The position numbers were made by a program, and so were the translations under genes. Shown piece after piece: positions 3,948 through 30,758 of a DNA stretch of 30,758 nucleotides. The notes under the pieces were generated by a model, which was given only the letters and a program-made list of their open reading frames with translations, ran no database searches and was not told where the DNA came from. Source of the stretch: Candidatus Hodarchaeota archaeon (GTDB taxonomy: Archaea > Asgardarchaeota > Heimdallarchaeia > Hodarchaeales > Hodarchaeaceae); assembly GCA_016840305.1 (NCBI GenBank), contig JAEOSP010000636.1, forward strand, positions 1 to 30,758. Reading direction: 5' to 3'. The stretch's first letter is position 1, and every line of letters starts with the position of its first letter.

Positions 3948-4039
3948 TGCGCCGACCGGGATTTGAACCCGGGCAGCCAGCTTTCTCCTCTCAATCGTGA
4001 ATGGAAGGCTGGAGTCCTACCAGACTAGACTATCAGCGC
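3948..4039 (-). tRNA. tRNA-Gly(TCC) with a 19-nt intron
   Basis: On the minus strand the acceptor stem pairs GCGCTGA (4039-4033) with TCGGCGC (3955-3949), with discriminator A at 3948. The D arm is GTCTAGTCTGGTAGGAC. The anticodon stem CCAGC/GCTGG encloses CTTCCA, an intron, and A, giving anticodon TCC. The T arm is CCGGG-TTCAAAT-CCCGG. No CCA is encoded. The gene is convergent with aRF1, about 18 bases beyond its stop. Confidence 0.96.
3983..4001 (-). other. tRNA-Gly intron (19 nt, position 37/38)
   Basis: The central helix pairs C32-T33-T34-C35 with GGAG (3988-3985), including one G-U pair. The bulges are C36-A37-T and AAA (3984-3982). Excision gives the normal loop CTTCCAA. It is at the shorter end of archaeal tRNA introns. 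Confidence 0.92.
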
Positions 4040-7847: not shown

Positions 7848-8176
7848 AGATTGCACTTCCACCCTGAAATACTGATATTGGAGGGAATAAGAGAAATTCA
7901 GTGTAATAATCCTGATATTTTCAAAATATAAATGTATTATCTTAAGCTTTACTTGAAGTAGATTATTCATTCATAGTCTTTAATAGAATTGTTTAGTCCA
8001 TTATGAGCAAATTAATCCTTGTTCTTCTGAAGGTAAGTTCATCATCTTTTATGGGTATCCTCGAGCAATAAAAGAAGAAAAAAATTTAACTATTCTAGAT
8101 AGAACTGAGTCAGTTTTTATAGGAATTGATAATAGTGGTAAAATTAGATTCAAATCCCCATTCTGGAGCTGAATAT
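7848..8176. other. Divergent intergenic region glmS / HTH gene
   Basis: An AT-rich spacer of about 330 bases that should hold promoters for both directions. I see no RNA gene and no clear inverted repeat operator. The HTH gene frame is open from TTG 8126. Confidence 0.4.
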
Positions 8177-15243: not shown

Positions 15244-16464
15244 CTAGCTCGTTGCCGAACCTAGTCTCCATCGTGTCGGATGTAACCCTACATCCTCTAT
15301 CCTGTCAGCGGTAATGGCGTTCAGGAATGCTTTTTTAAGGATATTATAGCCACCATTAACATCAGCATTAATAATAACGCCTTTTTTAGATTTAAATAGT
15401 CCTCTACTAATCCTTTTTCCTTGATATTTGCTATGGTGTCTTATGGGTTCATTATCCAAGAAAGAACACTTGCTAGAATGGCTTTCTTCTTGTTTAATGA
15501 TCGTTATTCCCTGTGCTTCAGCTTTATAGTCTAATTGTTGAATTAACCTGTAAAAAGGAATGGTGATAAAATTCTGGTTATTCCTTTTCCCAAGGTGACA
15601 GCTTTGTTTCCAATCCGGGTTATAACCAATAACAATTGTTCCAATGTCATTTAATACACAATAATCAATAATTTTTCGACTGTTTTTATGAAAAAAGTCA
15701 TTAATTTTCTTATTGCGCTTATTGGTTAATCTGTGCATGTTTTTACCTGCTTTTATCCCTTGACGGTCATAAATCGATTGAATTCTAGCTTTCTCTTTGT
15801 TATAATATTGATTAATGGATTTAACAATCCCACCTTTAATAACAAACGGTTTTAAACCATTATTATTAACAGTAGTTATGAGGTTACGTACCCCTAAATC
15901 AATGGCAATGATATTATCTTTATTCAAAGAATTAGGACTAACAATTTTCTGGAAGACAATTTCTACCACATAACCTGCCCCTTTAGGAATTATTCGCACT
16001 TCTCTTATGTCTGTTATGTCAGGTAATCTTGTTCTTAATTTCAAACCTACTTTTTAAGGAAAAAATACGTTATTATTTACTAATTTCACCTGTTGGTTGG
16101 TAAAAACCAGTAAGGTCTCTCCATTCTTTGGTTTGTATTTAGGTATTCTTGGTACAGCCTTGAATTTTGATTCATCCTTTTCCCACTCTTTGAAAGCATT
16201 AAAATAACTAGTCCAATTTCTATCAAGGATTTTCAATATCTGTTGGGCTGTTTGGGCTGGTAGTTCTTGATAATTCTTTGAGGTTTTTAATGAATGATAA
16301 AGAGCATTATAACGGATTCTTTTACTAGTTTTAAAGAACTCCTGACGGATTTGATAATTACTCTCATTGTAGAGGTTCTTTGATAGATGACATAGCTGTC
16401 GGAGTGGCTTTGTTGGTTTTAACCAAATCCGCTCTGTTCTGAATACTCTCTTCAGGTTATTCAA
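15244..16464 (-). pseudogene. TnpB-type RNA-guided nuclease gene with one in-frame stop
   Basis: About 400 codons of TnpB on the minus strand, read in one frame except for a TAA at 16056-16054. The N-terminal part includes RQLCHLSKNLYNES and ELPAQTAQQILKIL. After the stop, the RuvC region has IAIDLGVRNLIT (first Asp), the segment VIGYNPDWKQ where RuvC-II usually has Glu, then QEESHSSKCSFLD and finally NADVNGGYNIL (last Asp). The zinc Cys pairs are lost, as in a known TnpB branch. The RuvC-II Glu is not in its usual place; a Glu of QEES may replace it. It is likely inactivated by the stop unless read through. The start is probably TTG 16464. Confidence 0.85.
15278..15295 (-). repeat. Hairpin at the 3' end of tnpB
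   Basis: GGATGTA and TACATCC form a 7-bp stem with a 4-base loop, inside the last codons of tnpB. Its position and GGATG core match the hairpins at the ends of the two relics, as expected for an element end and guide-RNA scaffold. Confidence 0.55.
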
Positions 16465-24167: not shown

Positions 24168-25112
24168 ATGAAAATGGGTAAAGGATCTGGATTTGGAAAA
24201 ACAATTTTGTTTGGCGAACATTTTGTTGTTTACGGATTACCTGCTTTAGCATCAGCAATTGGTGACTATACAGAAGCATTTGTAGAAGTTAAGGAAGGTA
24301 AAGGGTATGAACTGGTTGATAATAGACCAGAAGTTCCTGGATATAAAGAAAAGAAGTTTGATGAACAAAAAATATCCATTCAAAATGTGTTAAATTTTAT
24401 GGGAATTGATGTTGAGAAACAAGCCCTTAAGATCACGCTTGCTGGAAATTTAACATGTGCAAGTGGTGTAGGTGCATCTGCAGCAAGTTGTGTTGCATTA
24501 GCTCGAGCTATTAACGATGAATTTGATATGGGATGGGATGATACCCGTATAAATGAAGCAGCTTATGAAGGAGAAAAAGGATATCATGGAACACCAAGTG
24601 GAATCGATAATACAGCTTCCACATTTGGAGGTATGGTATACTTCGTTAAAAATCTTCATGGAGGTCCAAACACAATGGAAACCATAAAAATAAATAAACC
24701 AATTGAGATGGTAATTGCTAGCTCAGGCATGACAGCTAATACTAGTGTAGTCGTTGCTGATGTTCGTGAAAAGAAAGAAGATAATCCTAAATGGTTTAAT
24801 GGAATAGTAACAGAATATAAAGCACTGATAAAGGATGGACGTAAGGCCCTTGAACTTCGTGAACTCGAGGAAGTAGGGAGGCTTATGAGTAAGAATCATC
24901 AATTGCTTAAAGAAATAACTGTTTCAAATGATGTGTTAGATAAAATGGTTGAAATTGCAAGGGATGCAGGCGCACTGGGATCAAAAGTCACTGGTACTGG
25001 TCGTGGAGGGAACATTAATGCTTTAACACCTGAAATTGAGCTACAAGAAAAGGTTTACAAAGCATTAACAGATGCAGGATATGCAGCTTGGAAAACTAAG
25101 ATTGGAGTATAA
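24168..25112 (+). CDS. mvk: Mevalonate kinase
   Basis: It phosphorylates mevalonate to mevalonate 5-phosphate. This GHMP kinase has FGKTILFGEHFVVYG at the N-terminus and the phosphate-binding motif CASGVGASAAS at about residues 97-107. HGTPSGIDN carries catalytic Asp147, and a Gly-rich C-terminal loop reads TGTGRGGNINALT. The length of 314 residues is usual. Start choice: ATG 24168 has AGGTGG only three bases upstream, while ATG 24174 has nine-base spacing. It is followed 24 bases later by the UbiD gene, so they form an operon. Confidence 0.93.
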   Translation: MKMGKGSGFGKTILFGEHFVVYGLPALASAIGDYTEAFVEVKEGKGYELVDNRPEVPGYKEKKFDEQKISIQNVLNFMGIDVEKQALKITLAGNLTCASGVGASAASCVALARAINDEFDMGWDDTRINEAAYEGEKGYHGTPSGIDNTASTFGGMVYFVKNLHGGPNTMETIKINKPIEMVIASSGMTANTSVVVADVREKKEDNPKWFNGIVTEYKALIKDGRKALELRELEEVGRLMSKNHQLLKEITVSNDVLDKMVEIARDAGALGSKVTGTGRGGNINALTPEIELQEKVYKALTDAGYAAWKTKIGV

Positions 25113-25136: not shown

Positions 25137-26447
25137 ATGGATTTTCGTGAATATATGAATCAATTAGAAAAAAAAGGCGCTATAACTAAGATTGAAAAAG
25201 AAGTAAGTATAGATATAGAAACCGCTGCTGTGTTGAAAACGGCTGAACCCACCCCTTTACTATTTGAAAATGTAAAAGGGTATCCAAACTACCGTGTTGC
25301 GGGAAATATTTTTAGTACCAAAACTAGTATTGCCGATTATTTTGGAATAACTACAGATCAGTTAATCCCAAGATTAACAGAGGCTATTGATAAAAGAAGC
25401 CTACCTGAAGTAATAGATAATGCTCCTTGTCAAGAAATAATTATGGATAAGGTAGATTTAGATGAATTACCAATTCTCAAACATAATGAGAGAGACGGAG
25501 GACGTTATATTTCTTCAGCAGTTGTTGTAACAAAAGACCCAGAATATGGGCAGAATTTAGACTTTCATCGTGCGATGCAATACACAAAAAATCGGATGAG
25601 TACACGAATCATAAAGGGACGTGACTTCTACAAATTCTTGGAAAGAACAGGGGAAGTAGACGCGGTTTATTGTGTAGGTAATACTCCAAACATACTAGTT
25701 GCAGCTGCTACTTCAGTAAAAACAGGTATTAATGAATTGGAGATTGCAAATGCTCTTGCTCCTACTCAAGTAACAAAAGCAAAAACGAAAGATGTTCTAA
25801 TTCCAGCTGGATGTGAAGTGGTTCTGGAAGGAAGGGTTTTTATGAAAAACAGAGCAGAAGAAGGTCCTTTCATCGATTTGACTGAGACATACGATATTAT
25901 TCGTGATGAACCAGTATTTGAGGTGGGAAAAATCACCCATCGTAAGAATCCTATTTGGCAAGCATTAATACCAGGAGCTTTAGAGCATAAAGTTTTGATG
26001 GGAATGCCAAGGGAACCAACCATCTTTAAGACAGTTAATGAAGCAGGAGTTACGTGTATTGATGTAAATGTTAATCCAGGCGGCTCATCGTGGTTGCACG
26101 CAATTGTGAAAATAGATAAAAAGGAAGAGGAAGACGGAAAAAAGGCTATTCATGCAGCATTCCAAGGACATCGTAGTTGTAAACATGTATTTGTTGTAGA
26201 TAAAGATATCAATATTTATGACCCTCTCGATGTAGAATGGTCAATGGCGACTCGTTTTCAAGCTGAAAGAGACTTGGTGGATATAGGTAAAGAACCAGGA
26301 TCAAGTTTAGATCCGAGTGCAGAACCCGGGACAAAAATTACTAATAAAATTGGATTTGATTTAACTGCTCCTCTTCAAACAAAAGGTAAGAGTTTTGCAA
26401 GAGCAGAGTTTCCTGAAGTCGATTTGAAAGAATATATTGACGAATAA
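25137..26447 (+). CDS. UbiD-family decarboxylase, probable anhydromevalonate phosphate decarboxylase
   Basis: UbiD-type, prenylated-FMN-dependent decarboxylase of 436 residues. In the archaeal mevalonate pathway this enzyme converts trans-anhydromevalonate 5-phosphate to isopentenyl phosphate. The family fold is seen in AEEGPFIDLTETYD, PIWQALIPGALEHKVLMGMP and VNVNPGGSSWLHAIVKI. The assignment to this substrate rests on context: mevalonate kinase directly upstream and phosphomevalonate dehydratase nearby. AGGTGG lies about 10 bases before the ATG. A prenyl-FMN synthase (UbiX) is not in the window. Confidence 0.88.
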   Translation: MDFREYMNQLEKKGAITKIEKEVSIDIETAAVLKTAEPTPLLFENVKGYPNYRVAGNIFSTKTSIADYFGITTDQLIPRLTEAIDKRSLPEVIDNAPCQEIIMDKVDLDELPILKHNERDGGRYISSAVVVTKDPEYGQNLDFHRAMQYTKNRMSTRIIKGRDFYKFLERTGEVDAVYCVGNTPNILVAAATSVKTGINELEIANALAPTQVTKAKTKDVLIPAGCEVVLEGRVFMKNRAEEGPFIDLTETYDIIRDEPVFEVGKITHRKNPIWQALIPGALEHKVLMGMPREPTIFKTVNEAGVTCIDVNVNPGGSSWLHAIVKIDKKEEEDGKKAIHAAFQGHRSCKHVFVVDKDINIYDPLDVEWSMATRFQAERDLVDIGKEPGSSLDPSAEPGTKITNKIGFDLTAPLQTKGKSFARAEFPEVDLKEYIDE

Positions 26448-28444: not shown

Positions 28445-29662
28445 ATGGAATTAACTCCTGAAGAACAAGAAATGGCTGAAGGGAAATACGGAAAAGCAGC
28501 CCAAACAGCCATGGAAATTTTAATAGCATTAGGTGAGATTTATGGCGCTAAAAGACTGATAGATGTTACCTCAGTTCAAATAGCTGGTGTTAGTTACGCG
28601 AATTTGAACGAACCGGGGCTAGCATGGCTAGAAGAGATGGCAAAGGATGGAAAAGTTAAGGTTTTCACTACCCTCAATCCTGCTGGAAAATCCCTTAGCT
28701 AAGAAATTGCTAATGGATCTAGAATGGATCTTGAGGAATGGCGTAAACTTTCCATCAGTGAGAACTTTGCTAAGAACCAGATTCGAGTAGTAGACGCTTT
28801 TCGGGAATTGAATGTAATCACGACATGCAGTTGTACCCCTTATCTTTATGGTAATTTACCTCACTTTGGTCAGCATATTGCTTGGTCTGAAAGTAGTGCT
28901 GTAGCCTATGCAAATTCTGTATTAGGTGCTCGTACTAATCGTGAAGGTGGACCGAGTGCTTTAAGTGCAGCTCTTGTTGGTAAAACCCCTGAGTATGGTT
29001 TTCATCTTGATGAAAATCGTCAACCTGAACTCACAGTGGAGGTAAAAACACCAATTACGGAAACGTTTAATTTTGGGGCATTAGGGAAGGTTTTGGGTGA
29101 TCGTTTCGGTAAAAAAATAACTTATATCAAAGGAATCCCTAAAGCAACAGTGGAAGAGTTGAAATCTTTTTGTGCTTCGTACGCCACATATGGAGGAATT
29201 GCTTTATTCCATATGGAAGGAATTACACCTGATAAAGTTAAATCAATTCCTATAGAGTCGGAAACTATAACAGAGGAAGATATTAAGAAAGCAATTGCCG
29301 ATCTTACTGACGATGTGGAAATAGATTTTATTAGTTTAGGTTGTCCTCATGCTTCACTAGCTGAACTTGAATATATTGCTGATAAACTGAAAGATAAGAA
29401 AATTAATCCTAAAAAAGAAGTTTGGATTACTACTGCTCGTCCTACTAAACAAATCGCCGATCGAATGGGTTTTACGAAAATGATTGAAGATTCTGGGGCT
29501 AAGATTGCAGCAGATACCTGTTGTGTTGTAGCTCCAATAAAAGGTCGTTTTCATGGTTTAGCATCTGATTCTGCGAAAATGTGTTATTATGGATCTGGGA
29601 GAAATAAATTCTCGGTAAAATTAATGTCAATGGATGAATGTTTAGAGGAGGCGTTGAAATAA
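28445..29662 (+). CDS. Phosphomevalonate dehydratase large subunit (AcnX type), interrupted by a BHB intron
   Basis: It dehydrates mevalonate 5-phosphate to trans-anhydromevalonate 5-phosphate with a 4Fe-4S cluster. Exon 1 (28445-28688) encodes residues 1-81 plus one base, and exon 2 (28725-29662) the rest. The spliced protein is 393 residues, normal for the family. In the unspliced frame a TAA occurs at 28700-28702. Joining at the BHB restores TLNPAGMDLEEW across the junction. Later blocks are ITTCSCTPYLYGNLP (Fe-S Cys), IAWSESSAVAYANSVLGART and DTCCVVAPIKGRFHG. AGGTGA precedes ATG 28445, and the stop overlaps the small-subunit ATG by one base. A split two-gene version is the alternative reading. 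Confidence 0.85.
28689..28724 (+). other. BHB intron (36 nt) inside a protein-coding gene
   Basis: The central helix pairs CTGG (28683-28686) with CTAG (28719-28722), with one G-U pair. The 5' bulge is AAA (28687-28689) and the 3' bulge AAT (28723-28725). The intron stem ATCC (28690-28693) with GGAT (28715-28718) continues into TTAGC/GCTAA with a 9-base loop that contains the TAA stop. Outer exon helices CCTCAA/TTGAGG and TCC/GGA close the structure, with two unpaired bases. Cutting after the second bulge base joins GGA-A to TG-GAT. The intron is in frame (36 nt). Confidence 0.85.
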
Positions 29663-30051
29663 TGAAGTTAACAGGTAGAAAAATCTTCAAAGGAAAGATA
29701 TCTGGTGAGGCATTGGTTACAAAAGATAGTATATCTTTTTATGGTGGAGTTGATCCAGATAATGGGGTAGTTGTTGAAAAAGGTCACGAATTAGAAAATG
29801 AAAGTATTTCAGGAAAAATACTTGTTTTTCCCTCTGGAAAAGGATCCACAGTTGGTTCTTATGTTATTTACCAGATGGCCAAAACAGGAAAAGGGCCTAA
29901 AGCCCTTGTTCTTCACGATTGTGAGGCCATAGTTGCTGTAGGAGCAATAATTTCGGAACTTCCTTGCGTTGATCAAATAGATGTCACTAAAATCGAAACT
30001 GGTATGCATTTAGAAGTCGATGGTGATTCTGGTACGGTAGAGATAAAATAA
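29662..30051 (+). CDS. Phosphomevalonate dehydratase small subunit (AcnX type, DUF126)
   Basis: A 129-residue partner of the large subunit. The core VFPSGKGSTVGSYVIYQMAK (about residues 53-72) carries the catalytic Ser motif of this swivelling domain. ATG 29662 overlaps the large-subunit TAA (TAATG), and GAGGAGG lies about 10 bases upstream. An upstream frame at 29638 would overlap the large subunit by 8 codons and is not needed. Confidence 0.93.
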   Translation: MKLTGRKIFKGKISGEALVTKDSISFYGGVDPDNGVVVEKGHELENESISGKILVFPSGKGSTVGSYVIYQMAKTGKGPKALVLHDCEAIVAVGAIISELPCVDQIDVTKIETGMHLEVDGDSGTVEIK

Positions 30052-30066: not shown

Positions 30067-30758
30067 CTATTCTCTTTTTCTTTCTTCCTTTCTGACCCCA
30101 TCTGATGAGAATTTGATATCAATCGGCATGATACCATTTCGTTCCCATTCTTTTACAATTAAACTAGCCGTACTTTCACTAAAACAGATTCCAATGCTGC
30201 AGTCTCCTCCTCCAGCTCCAGAGAATTTTGCTACAGCTCCATATTTCGACGCAGTATGACTCATTATTTGGTGTTCAGTAATTTCTAAATGACAAGAACA
30301 AGCAAGACTCAGCTCTTCTAGCAGTAAACGATTTTGATCCAGTAACTTCAAAACAGTTACGTTTTCTCTTTTACGAATGGCTTCGATGAGCTGATCAGTA
30401 ACATCAGAAATACGTGAAATTATCATGAAATAACTATCAGGATCTTCCTCCTTGAAAAGTTTCATTTGAGACACTAATTTCTTTGTAGACGCACTTGTGC
30501 CAGTAAAACCAACTATCATAAATAAATCATTAGGTAATTCTAATTTTTCATATTTTAACAATGGCCAATCCATATTTACTACTTCTAGCAATGTATGAGA
30601 TTGAAGGTTCTTATGTAACCACTCAGGGTCAAATCTTTTGTACACCAACACTCCTCCAAAAGTAGAAGCGGCAACGTCAAATCCAGATCCGATTTTACCT
30701 TGTCCAAAATAGTGTGAAATTATACTCAACTTGAATACAACTTCTTTTTCACTCATTC
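30067..30758 (-). CDS. Phosphomevalonate kinase (ERG8-like GHMP kinase), N-terminus cut by right edge
   Basis: It phosphorylates mevalonate 5-phosphate to the diphosphate, the classical pathway. GQGKIGSGFDVAASTFGG lies only 18 residues from the first visible Met, whereas complete proteins have about 100 residues before this motif. The gene therefore probably continues beyond the edge and the visible Met is internal. Further signatures are FTGTSASTKKLV and the C-terminal KFSGAGGGDCSIGICF. It is convergent with the dehydratase operon, 15 bases apart. Confidence 0.88.
   Translation of the reverse strand, partial: MSEKEVVFKLSIISHYFGQGKIGSGFDVAASTFGGVLVYKRFDPEWLHKNLQSHTLLEVVNMDWPLLKYEKLELPNDLFMIVGFTGTSASTKKLVSQMKLFKEEDPDSYFMIISRISDVTDQLIEAIRKRENVTVLKLLDQNRLLLEELSLACSCHLEITEHQIMSHTASKYGAVAKFSGAGGGDCSIGICFSESTASLIVKEWERNGIMPIDIKFSSDGVRKEERKRE

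Follow-up and report, generated by a model that had tools for sequence, protein, structure and literature searches.

A short relaxed BHB pre-mRNA intron predicted in the phosphomevalonate dehydratase large-subunit gene of a Hodarchaeales archaeon

The gene for an AcnX large subunit, a predicted phosphomevalonate dehydratase, extends over positions 28445-29662 (+) of the window (the whole stretch of DNA analysed in this work, 30,758 nucleotides) and is broken by an insert of 36 nt, 28689-28724, at the point NPAG^MDL. We consider this insert to be, with a probability of about 0.93, a short relaxed BHB pre-mRNA intron. It is by far the best reading because the insert is absent in close relatives, ranges in length from 29 to 36 nt, carries compensatory changes in its stem and upon removal restores the family sequence (the frame was restored in four of five copies); the original prediction of a BHB-type intron in this gene is supported by the same facts.

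The interrupted gene and its predicted fold

The original prediction of 36 extra bases with an in-frame TAA at NPAGMDL was confirmed. The insert is flanked by GGAA on the 5′ side and by TGGATC on the 3′ side, it encodes no protein, and reading in frame through its beginning gives GGA AAA TCC CTT AGC TAA, the stop codon lying at 28700-28702. The resulting ORFs of 85 and 312 amino acids correspond to Pfam AcnX profile positions 1-82 and 83-400, respectively, so the insert falls between adjacent positions of the family. Excision of 28689-28724 produces TLNPAGMDLEEW, and the ATG at 28724 chosen by gene callers takes its A from the intron. The elements of the interrupted gene are as follows:

28445..28688, + strand, exon 1: AcnX codons 1-81 (M..TLNPAG) and the first base of the Met82 codon (Pfam AcnX 1-82; alignment with residues 1-82 of PDB 7cnr_A; low dN with high or saturated dS)
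28672..28680, + strand, outer exon helix, 5′ strand CCTCAATCC, pairing with 28726-28729 and 28732-28736
28683..28686, + strand, exon-1 strand CTGG of the central 4-bp helix, pairing with intron CTAG 28719-28722 (one G-U pair)
28687..28689, + strand, 5′ bulge AAA, predicted cut after 28688
28689..28724, + strand, predicted BHB intron of 36 nt (same-site inserts in relatives; fold z -3.60; covariation)
28690..28718, + strand, intron stem-loop, 28690-28699 pairing with 28709-28718 (mismatch 28694/28714 in the window)
28719..28722, + strand, intron strand CTAG of the central helix (CCAG in L005, L011 and L012; ACAG in L009)
28723..28725, + strand, 3′ bulge AAT facing T28681-G28682, predicted cut after 28724
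28725..29662, + strand, exon 2, the remainder of the AcnX large subunit (Pfam AcnX 83-400; match to PDB 7cnr_A)

Both exons are under purifying selection alike in the five intron-bearing copies. For exon 1 the ten pairwise comparisons among them gave dN of 0.049-0.089 with dS from 0.72 to saturation, and because low dN accompanies high or saturated dS this part of the gene is very likely translated and needed.

The 65-nt segment of the window folds with -21.9 kcal/mol (z -3.60), and none of 200 shuffled sequences folded as well. Since the fold surpasses all 200 shuffles and inserts at the same position are found in four other genomic copies, the insert is more than a product of chance. The corresponding z values were -3.67 for L005, -3.44 for L011, -6.74 for L012 and -1.79 for L009, the last being equalled by 10 of 200 shuffles. 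In all five copies the minimum-energy fold comprises the outer exon helix, the TG/AAT internal loop, a helix starting from exon CTG, a 3-nt bulge and the intron stem. The CTGG/CTAG central helix, the AAA bulge, the inner stem and the outer CCTCAA/TTGAGG helix proposed previously were thus recovered, and it is the AAT on the 3′ side that departs from the proposal, as it does not form a clean bulge: TCC and GGA pair too, so AAT stands opposite two unpaired bases (TG) in a 2x3 internal loop. This loop is present in five of five copies, and the helix with the 5′ bulge in four of five. As modelled, the BHB is a relaxed one, with the 3′ bulge placed inside a 2x3 internal loop and not a strict bulge.

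On the 5′ side the fold lets either A28687 or A28690 pair with U28718; of the two possible registers of the bulge, 28687-28689 was chosen because it restores the reading frame. When the cut is placed by hand after the second base of each bulge, GGAA is joined to TGG, and the exact frame and the family sequence NPAGMDL are obtained in the window, L005, L011 and L012 (4/5). The claim that cutting at the standard positions restores the family sequence therefore holds for the window copy. In L009 the central helix contains a G-A mismatch, the strict rule applied to the minimum-free-energy fold leads to the wrong frame, and the restoration is ambiguous; either its relaxed site would be cut elsewhere or this copy would be spliced poorly.

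Covariation was analysed in an alignment of five sequences, A2 (the window, L005, L009, L011 and L012), in which 91.2% of 113 cells pair, as compared with 26.5-46.0% when the structure is slid along the alignment. Two-sided changes that keep the pairing occur in 6 of 23 pairs, all of them among the 10 pairs of the intron stem, versus 0-2 with slid structures. Shuffles matched A2 in 2-3 cases out of 500 for four of the five measures and in 47 of 500 for the number of pair types. The central helix is nearly invariant across the five copies, with one pair broken in L009, and the outer exon helix, which is coding sequence, has 88.9% of its cells paired and no double changes. The exon codons at the 5′ site read AATCCTGCTGGA in all five intron-bearing copies and in one of the eight copies of the order that lack the intron (Fisher p 0.0047, uncorrected for relatedness). 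The intronless exception is L003 (around 7989-8001), which belongs to a supported clade with three intron-bearing copies and one other intronless copy; its codons may be left over from a precise loss of the intron that took place recently. A thorarchaeal intronless copy, L018, has AATCCTGCTGGA as well.

In the proposed mechanism CTGG of exon 1 would pair in the transcript with CTAG or CCAG of the intron, the archaeal tRNA-splicing endonuclease would cut the AAA and AAT bulges after their second base, and RtcB would then probably join the exons. The ligated mRNA would read CCT GCT GGA ATG GAT (P A G M D), and the RNA left unspliced would be translated into an inactive N-terminal stub.

Three further genes of the window are relevant to the function of the host gene:

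24168..25112, + strand, mevalonate kinase (TIGR00549, 231.3 bits, cut-off 163.05)
25137..26447, + strand, UbiD-family decarboxylase, candidate anhydromevalonate phosphate decarboxylase (Pfam UbiD, TIGR00148)
29662..30051, + strand, AcnX small (swivel) subunit (Pfam PF01989; start chosen by eye)

The ATG of the small subunit overlaps the stop codon of the large one. Together with both AcnX genes, the mevalonate kinase and UbiD-family genes make up a predicted modified-mevalonate cluster, the latter presumably acting in this pathway as anhydromevalonate phosphate decarboxylase. No NCBIfam equivalog scored above its cut-off for the AcnX large subunit, and its prediction as phosphomevalonate dehydratase is based on the AcnX type, the separate small subunit and the neighbouring genes. 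The AcnX pair is adjoined by a GHMP-kinase-like gene (30067-30756, -) that reaches the end of the window. A TnpB-like (IS605 OrfB) gene at 15244-16464 (-) consists of two ORFs split by one in-frame TAA with no visible insert; its C-terminal piece matches OrfB_IS605 and Cas12f1-like TNB, and its N-terminal piece matches no Pfam family.

The structure PDB 7cnr is taken here to be that of the T. kodakarensis enzyme. In the consulted part of PMC10040528, the substrate phosphate is described as held in the T. kodakarensis enzyme by Gly48, Val49, Ser50, Asn53, Asn79 and Pro80, and the iron-sulphur cysteines of A. pernix PMDh are numbered 122, 297 and 356. These three cysteine positions would map to exon 2. 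The intron would then separate the phosphate pocket (exon 1) from the metal site (exon 2), and neither half should work alone because the phosphate-binding residues are encoded by the first and the Fe-S cysteines by the second.

Distribution of the insert among relatives

Scanning of one genome per species yielded 51 AcnX loci, and the junction was read in the 21 nearest. Loci L001-L012 come from eleven genomes of a single order, which we infer to be Hodarchaeales, and AcnX was matched in 13 of the 14 genomes of that order. The insert is located exactly at NPAG^MDL in 5 of the 13 gene copies of the order (window included). Alignment of AcnX homologues was suggested with the original prediction as a way to see whether the insert is absent, and the other 8 of the 13 read NPAGMDL unbroken. 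The insert is 36 nt long in the window, L005, L011 and L012 and 34 nt, hence frame-shifting, in L009. The four copies from outside the window sit in three genomes; L009 and L011, with introns of 34 and 36 nt, share the metagenome bin G002 and are either paralogues or a sign of a mixed bin.

The protein databases contain the same pattern. The search with the exon-2 protein retrieved 312-aa proteins beginning with MDL alongside full-length ones of 393-394 aa. The exon-1 protein retrieved 83 proteins, 30 of which (that of the window and 29 clusters, including P0123, the N-half cluster of L011) stop at NPAG followed by an insert-coded tail. The tails open with K or I (KSLS, KSFS, KLNS, ISLAI, KPLAN etc). 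The 85-residue product expected from the unspliced message is correct for the window copy; elsewhere the tails are different, and in six protein clusters they cross the 3′ junction in the wrong frame into exon 2 (e.g. ...GTEWILRNG). Counted back to NPAG by hand, the inserts have 29 nt in P0131, P0137, P0143 and P0146, 34 nt in P0139 and 35 nt in P0148. Such variation in length, in and out of frame, argues against a peptide insert tolerated in the protein and against simple read-through of the stop codon. Eight pairs of N-half and C-half clusters have longest contigs of equal size (the contigs being matched through their length and not through their names).

The covariance model R1, built from alignment A3, was run against 227 Asgard genomes with stricter filters, so that weak true copies could escape. 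It gave 32 matches with E <= 1, of which four were below 1e-12, all of them AcnX introns, and the next best had E of 0.036. Six of the 28 weak matches were inspected and put down to chance as candidates for further introns: five lie in open frames of at least 142 codons, the sixth in a stop-to-stop frame of 73 codons. In-frame stops in AcnX were found, among the matches listed for the 227 genomes, in G001, G002 and G003, which carry the intron, and in G147. The G147 copy (L095) has TAA near codon 15 and an unbroken junction, unrelated to the intron site. Searching again 21 genomes, mostly those with weak or split matches, revealed no further introns at the loci with a readable junction motif; many divergent loci yielded no such motif. 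P0072, a C-half-like AcnX protein of 310 aa that groups with Njordarchaeum-type proteins, starts at the same MDL; it could represent an intron outside the order or a contig-edge call.

The exon-2 protein tree was built for 74 of the 120 listed proteins and the window. With every row of the 312-aa type counted as intron-bearing (22/75), 16 changes were required, 10 of them forced by well-supported branches, and 29 of 500 label shuffles gave a number as low. Since a 312-aa entry could be a contig-edge artefact, the count was repeated with the 10 rows backed by an N-half with an equal longest contig, by DNA (P0059 = L012) or by being the window itself, and the 12 unbacked rows were dropped. Against 53 full-length rows these required 9 changes, and a single intron clade was rejected with AU p of 7.35e-5, a test that presumes a group named before the tree, which is not quite the case for this clade. 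On the DNA tree, which has 19 rows and excludes L017, L019 and L021, 4 changes were needed, 2 of them forced; with 195 of 500 shuffles as low and the bootstrap unsettled, no clustering of intron copies was demonstrated on this tree. The inserts of the DNA copies are alignable and have common ends, and for this reason a single origin followed by numerous precise losses, or by recombinational replacement, appears likelier than many independent gains at the same site. We infer that the intron is old within the order and that it was precisely lost on many occasions or removed by recombinational exchange. Its patchy presence argues for its being dispensable to the function of the enzyme across the order.

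Splicing enzymes and known archaeal introns

All 14 genomes of the order have one or more EndA-family matches above the cut-off, and in 11 of them both of the two types distinguished by score exceed it (the types of G014 by score alone). One type only was found in G006 and G013 (alpha) and in G011 (beta, with a weak stop-containing fragment); these genomes may have another endonuclease make-up or the genes may have been missed. In G006 an E1-like (ThiF/UBA-type) ORF adjoins a UBC-like ORF (L173, 1032-2824; both named by eye). The closest structures to alpha EndA are 3p1z, 3ajv and 2cv8, presumably of the Aeropyrum/Sulfolobus type. The Tyr, His and Lys motifs, which we take to be the catalytic residues, are retained in the alpha protein of G001, G002 and G003, and the beta protein lacks the His in G002, G003, G004 and G010 (that of G001 was only matched). 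All three intron-bearing genomes, relatives of the organism that owns the window, encode two EndA-family genes and RtcB. The relevant enzyme would be EndA of the two-paralogue (heteromeric) type, tolerant of relaxed motifs. A hetero-oligomeric endonuclease is described, in the part of PMC2738675 consulted, as cutting the cbf5 introns, which have mostly unconventional BHB motifs, and the consulted part of PMC12397907 states that some endonucleases accept relaxed BHB forms.

The window also contains one tRNA gene:

3948..4039, - strand, tRNA gene with ~19 extra bases in the anticodon loop (Rfam RF00005, 55 bits)

It would be Gly-UCC with an intron at 37/38, intron length and anticodon being worked out by hand. 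ARAGORN found no tRNA in the window and missed this one, which was found by Rfam; its extra bases look BHB-type. Because of these ~19 bases in the anticodon loop the owner of the window probably splices tRNA. In three wetland Asgard genomes introns occur in 92-95% of tRNA genes, according to the consulted part of PMC11291895.

The AcnX insert resembles archaeal tRNA introns with relaxed BHB in size, in the BHB-like fold and in the expected enzyme, EndA, and differs from them in that the host RNA is an mRNA and removal must restore the codon frame. Group I and II introns also interrupt genes and are far longer and self-splicing; a member of these groups, with its conserved catalytic core, was rejected for the AcnX site in view of the 36-nt length and of the Rfam results, which gave only the tRNA in the window and nothing at this locus. 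The closest parallel is the intron in cbf5 of Desulfurococcales and Sulfolobales. As presented in PMC2738675, it also interrupts a conserved protein-coding gene, has predicted cuts between the second and third bulge residues, is mostly of the unconventional BHB form with a variable internal region and has undergone lineage-specific loss. The host genes differ, as cbf5 codes for an RNA pseudouridine synthase and AcnX for a predicted isoprenoid enzyme in the Asgard phylum, and we claim no homology between the introns. Splicing of cbf5 has cDNA evidence, whereas the AcnX intron is predicted from DNA and protein sequences. Within the order, the Cbf5 (TruB_N) stretches matched in 13 of 14 genomes show no in-frame stop; G008 gave no match. 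The Haloferax HVO_1309 mRNA contains, according to the consulted part of PMC7714728, a BHB site cut by EndA, but this site is placed in the 5′UTR and not within the reading frame.

Alternative readings and implications

The patchy distribution on the gene tree would fit a small mobile DNA insert, tolerated since its ends form a BHB and spread by its own mobility. Such an origin is nevertheless improbable: the insert encodes no protein, the covariance model reached E < 1e-12 in the 227 Asgard genomes only for the four AcnX introns (next E 0.036), and the six weak matches inspected all lie in the open frames described above. We give somewhat less credence to a truly split gene, with the 85-aa and 312-aa ORFs translated separately (by reinitiation at ATG 28724) and the pieces assembling into the enzyme. 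All five DNA copies have ATG at the junction, the databases contain 312-aa proteins that start there, and both halves are conserved. The junction Met is, however, conserved in uninterrupted homologues too and so is not a new start, P0038 has Val and not Met there, and the A of the ATG is a base of the insert. Moreover, the tails of the N-halves are unconserved, six being out of frame into exon 2, the covariation of the stem and the fixed exon codons require a reason at the RNA level, and a nearly identical full-length sister exists (P0002 versus P0003, with P0002 known from protein alone).

Programmed translational bypassing is known from phage T4 gene 60 and yeast mitochondrial byps, and ribosomes hopping over the 29-36-nt hairpin insert of an uncut RNA would be another way to express the gene. 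The GGA before the insert, the stop soon after it and the hairpin bear a superficial likeness to gene 60. To our knowledge, the landing codon of such hops matches the take-off codon, but here the take-off GGA faces AGA before the landing ATG in all five DNA copies, and the two codons are unmatched; the six read-through proteins are uninformative on the landing codon, whose first base is mostly hidden at the protein level. The 4-bp exon-intron helix and the bulge geometry fit a BHB instead, and bypassing is accordingly very unlikely. Least credible is an assembly error or a decaying pseudogene. An isolated in-frame stop in a metagenomic contig often reflects an error, but this reading is already contradicted: independent assemblies have the insert with differing sequences and lengths, both exons are under purifying selection, and the AcnX large and small genes form an intact pair inside the mevalonate cluster.

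The naming of cbf5 in the original prediction as the best example of an archaeal mRNA intron is matched by the literature. The parts consulted describe cbf5 of some crenarchaeons as the gene to which pre-mRNA introns of archaea are 'confined' (PMC4810243, 2016) and cbf5 as the 'only one example' of a further BHB intron reported (PMC7714728, 2020); a report of another gene later than these statements could exist. In a search that left subscription papers and bioRxiv largely outside, no literature was found on an intron in phosphomevalonate dehydratase or in archaeal aconitase X. If the predicted BHB intron is spliced, AcnX would be only the second protein gene of archaea with reported splicing by the tRNA machinery, and its intron is likely the first such in the archaeal group closest to eukaryotes.

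A broader picture is tentative and on balance doubtful, namely that Hodarchaeales splice mRNA with the tRNA enzyme, maintain an intron polymorphism (repeatedly lost, and regained by exchange) in a membrane-lipid pathway and have in the unspliced message an off state; splicing as a gate of the pathway, as first suggested for this gene, is a guess. Should this picture be true, other spliced genes would be hidden among the 'truncated' annotations of these archaea. As for the AcnX intron itself, a second gene, a second phylum and about thirty variants at the protein level would mean that such splicing is no peculiarity of cbf5, and would put splicing of a metabolic mRNA in the archaea nearest to eukaryotes. 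The intron would make the 'truncated' aconitase X entries (C-halves of ~312 aa and N-halves of 83-112 aa) gene-calling artefacts, and the intron-bearing and intron-free sisters would constitute a natural series for the study of gain and loss of an archaeal mRNA intron.
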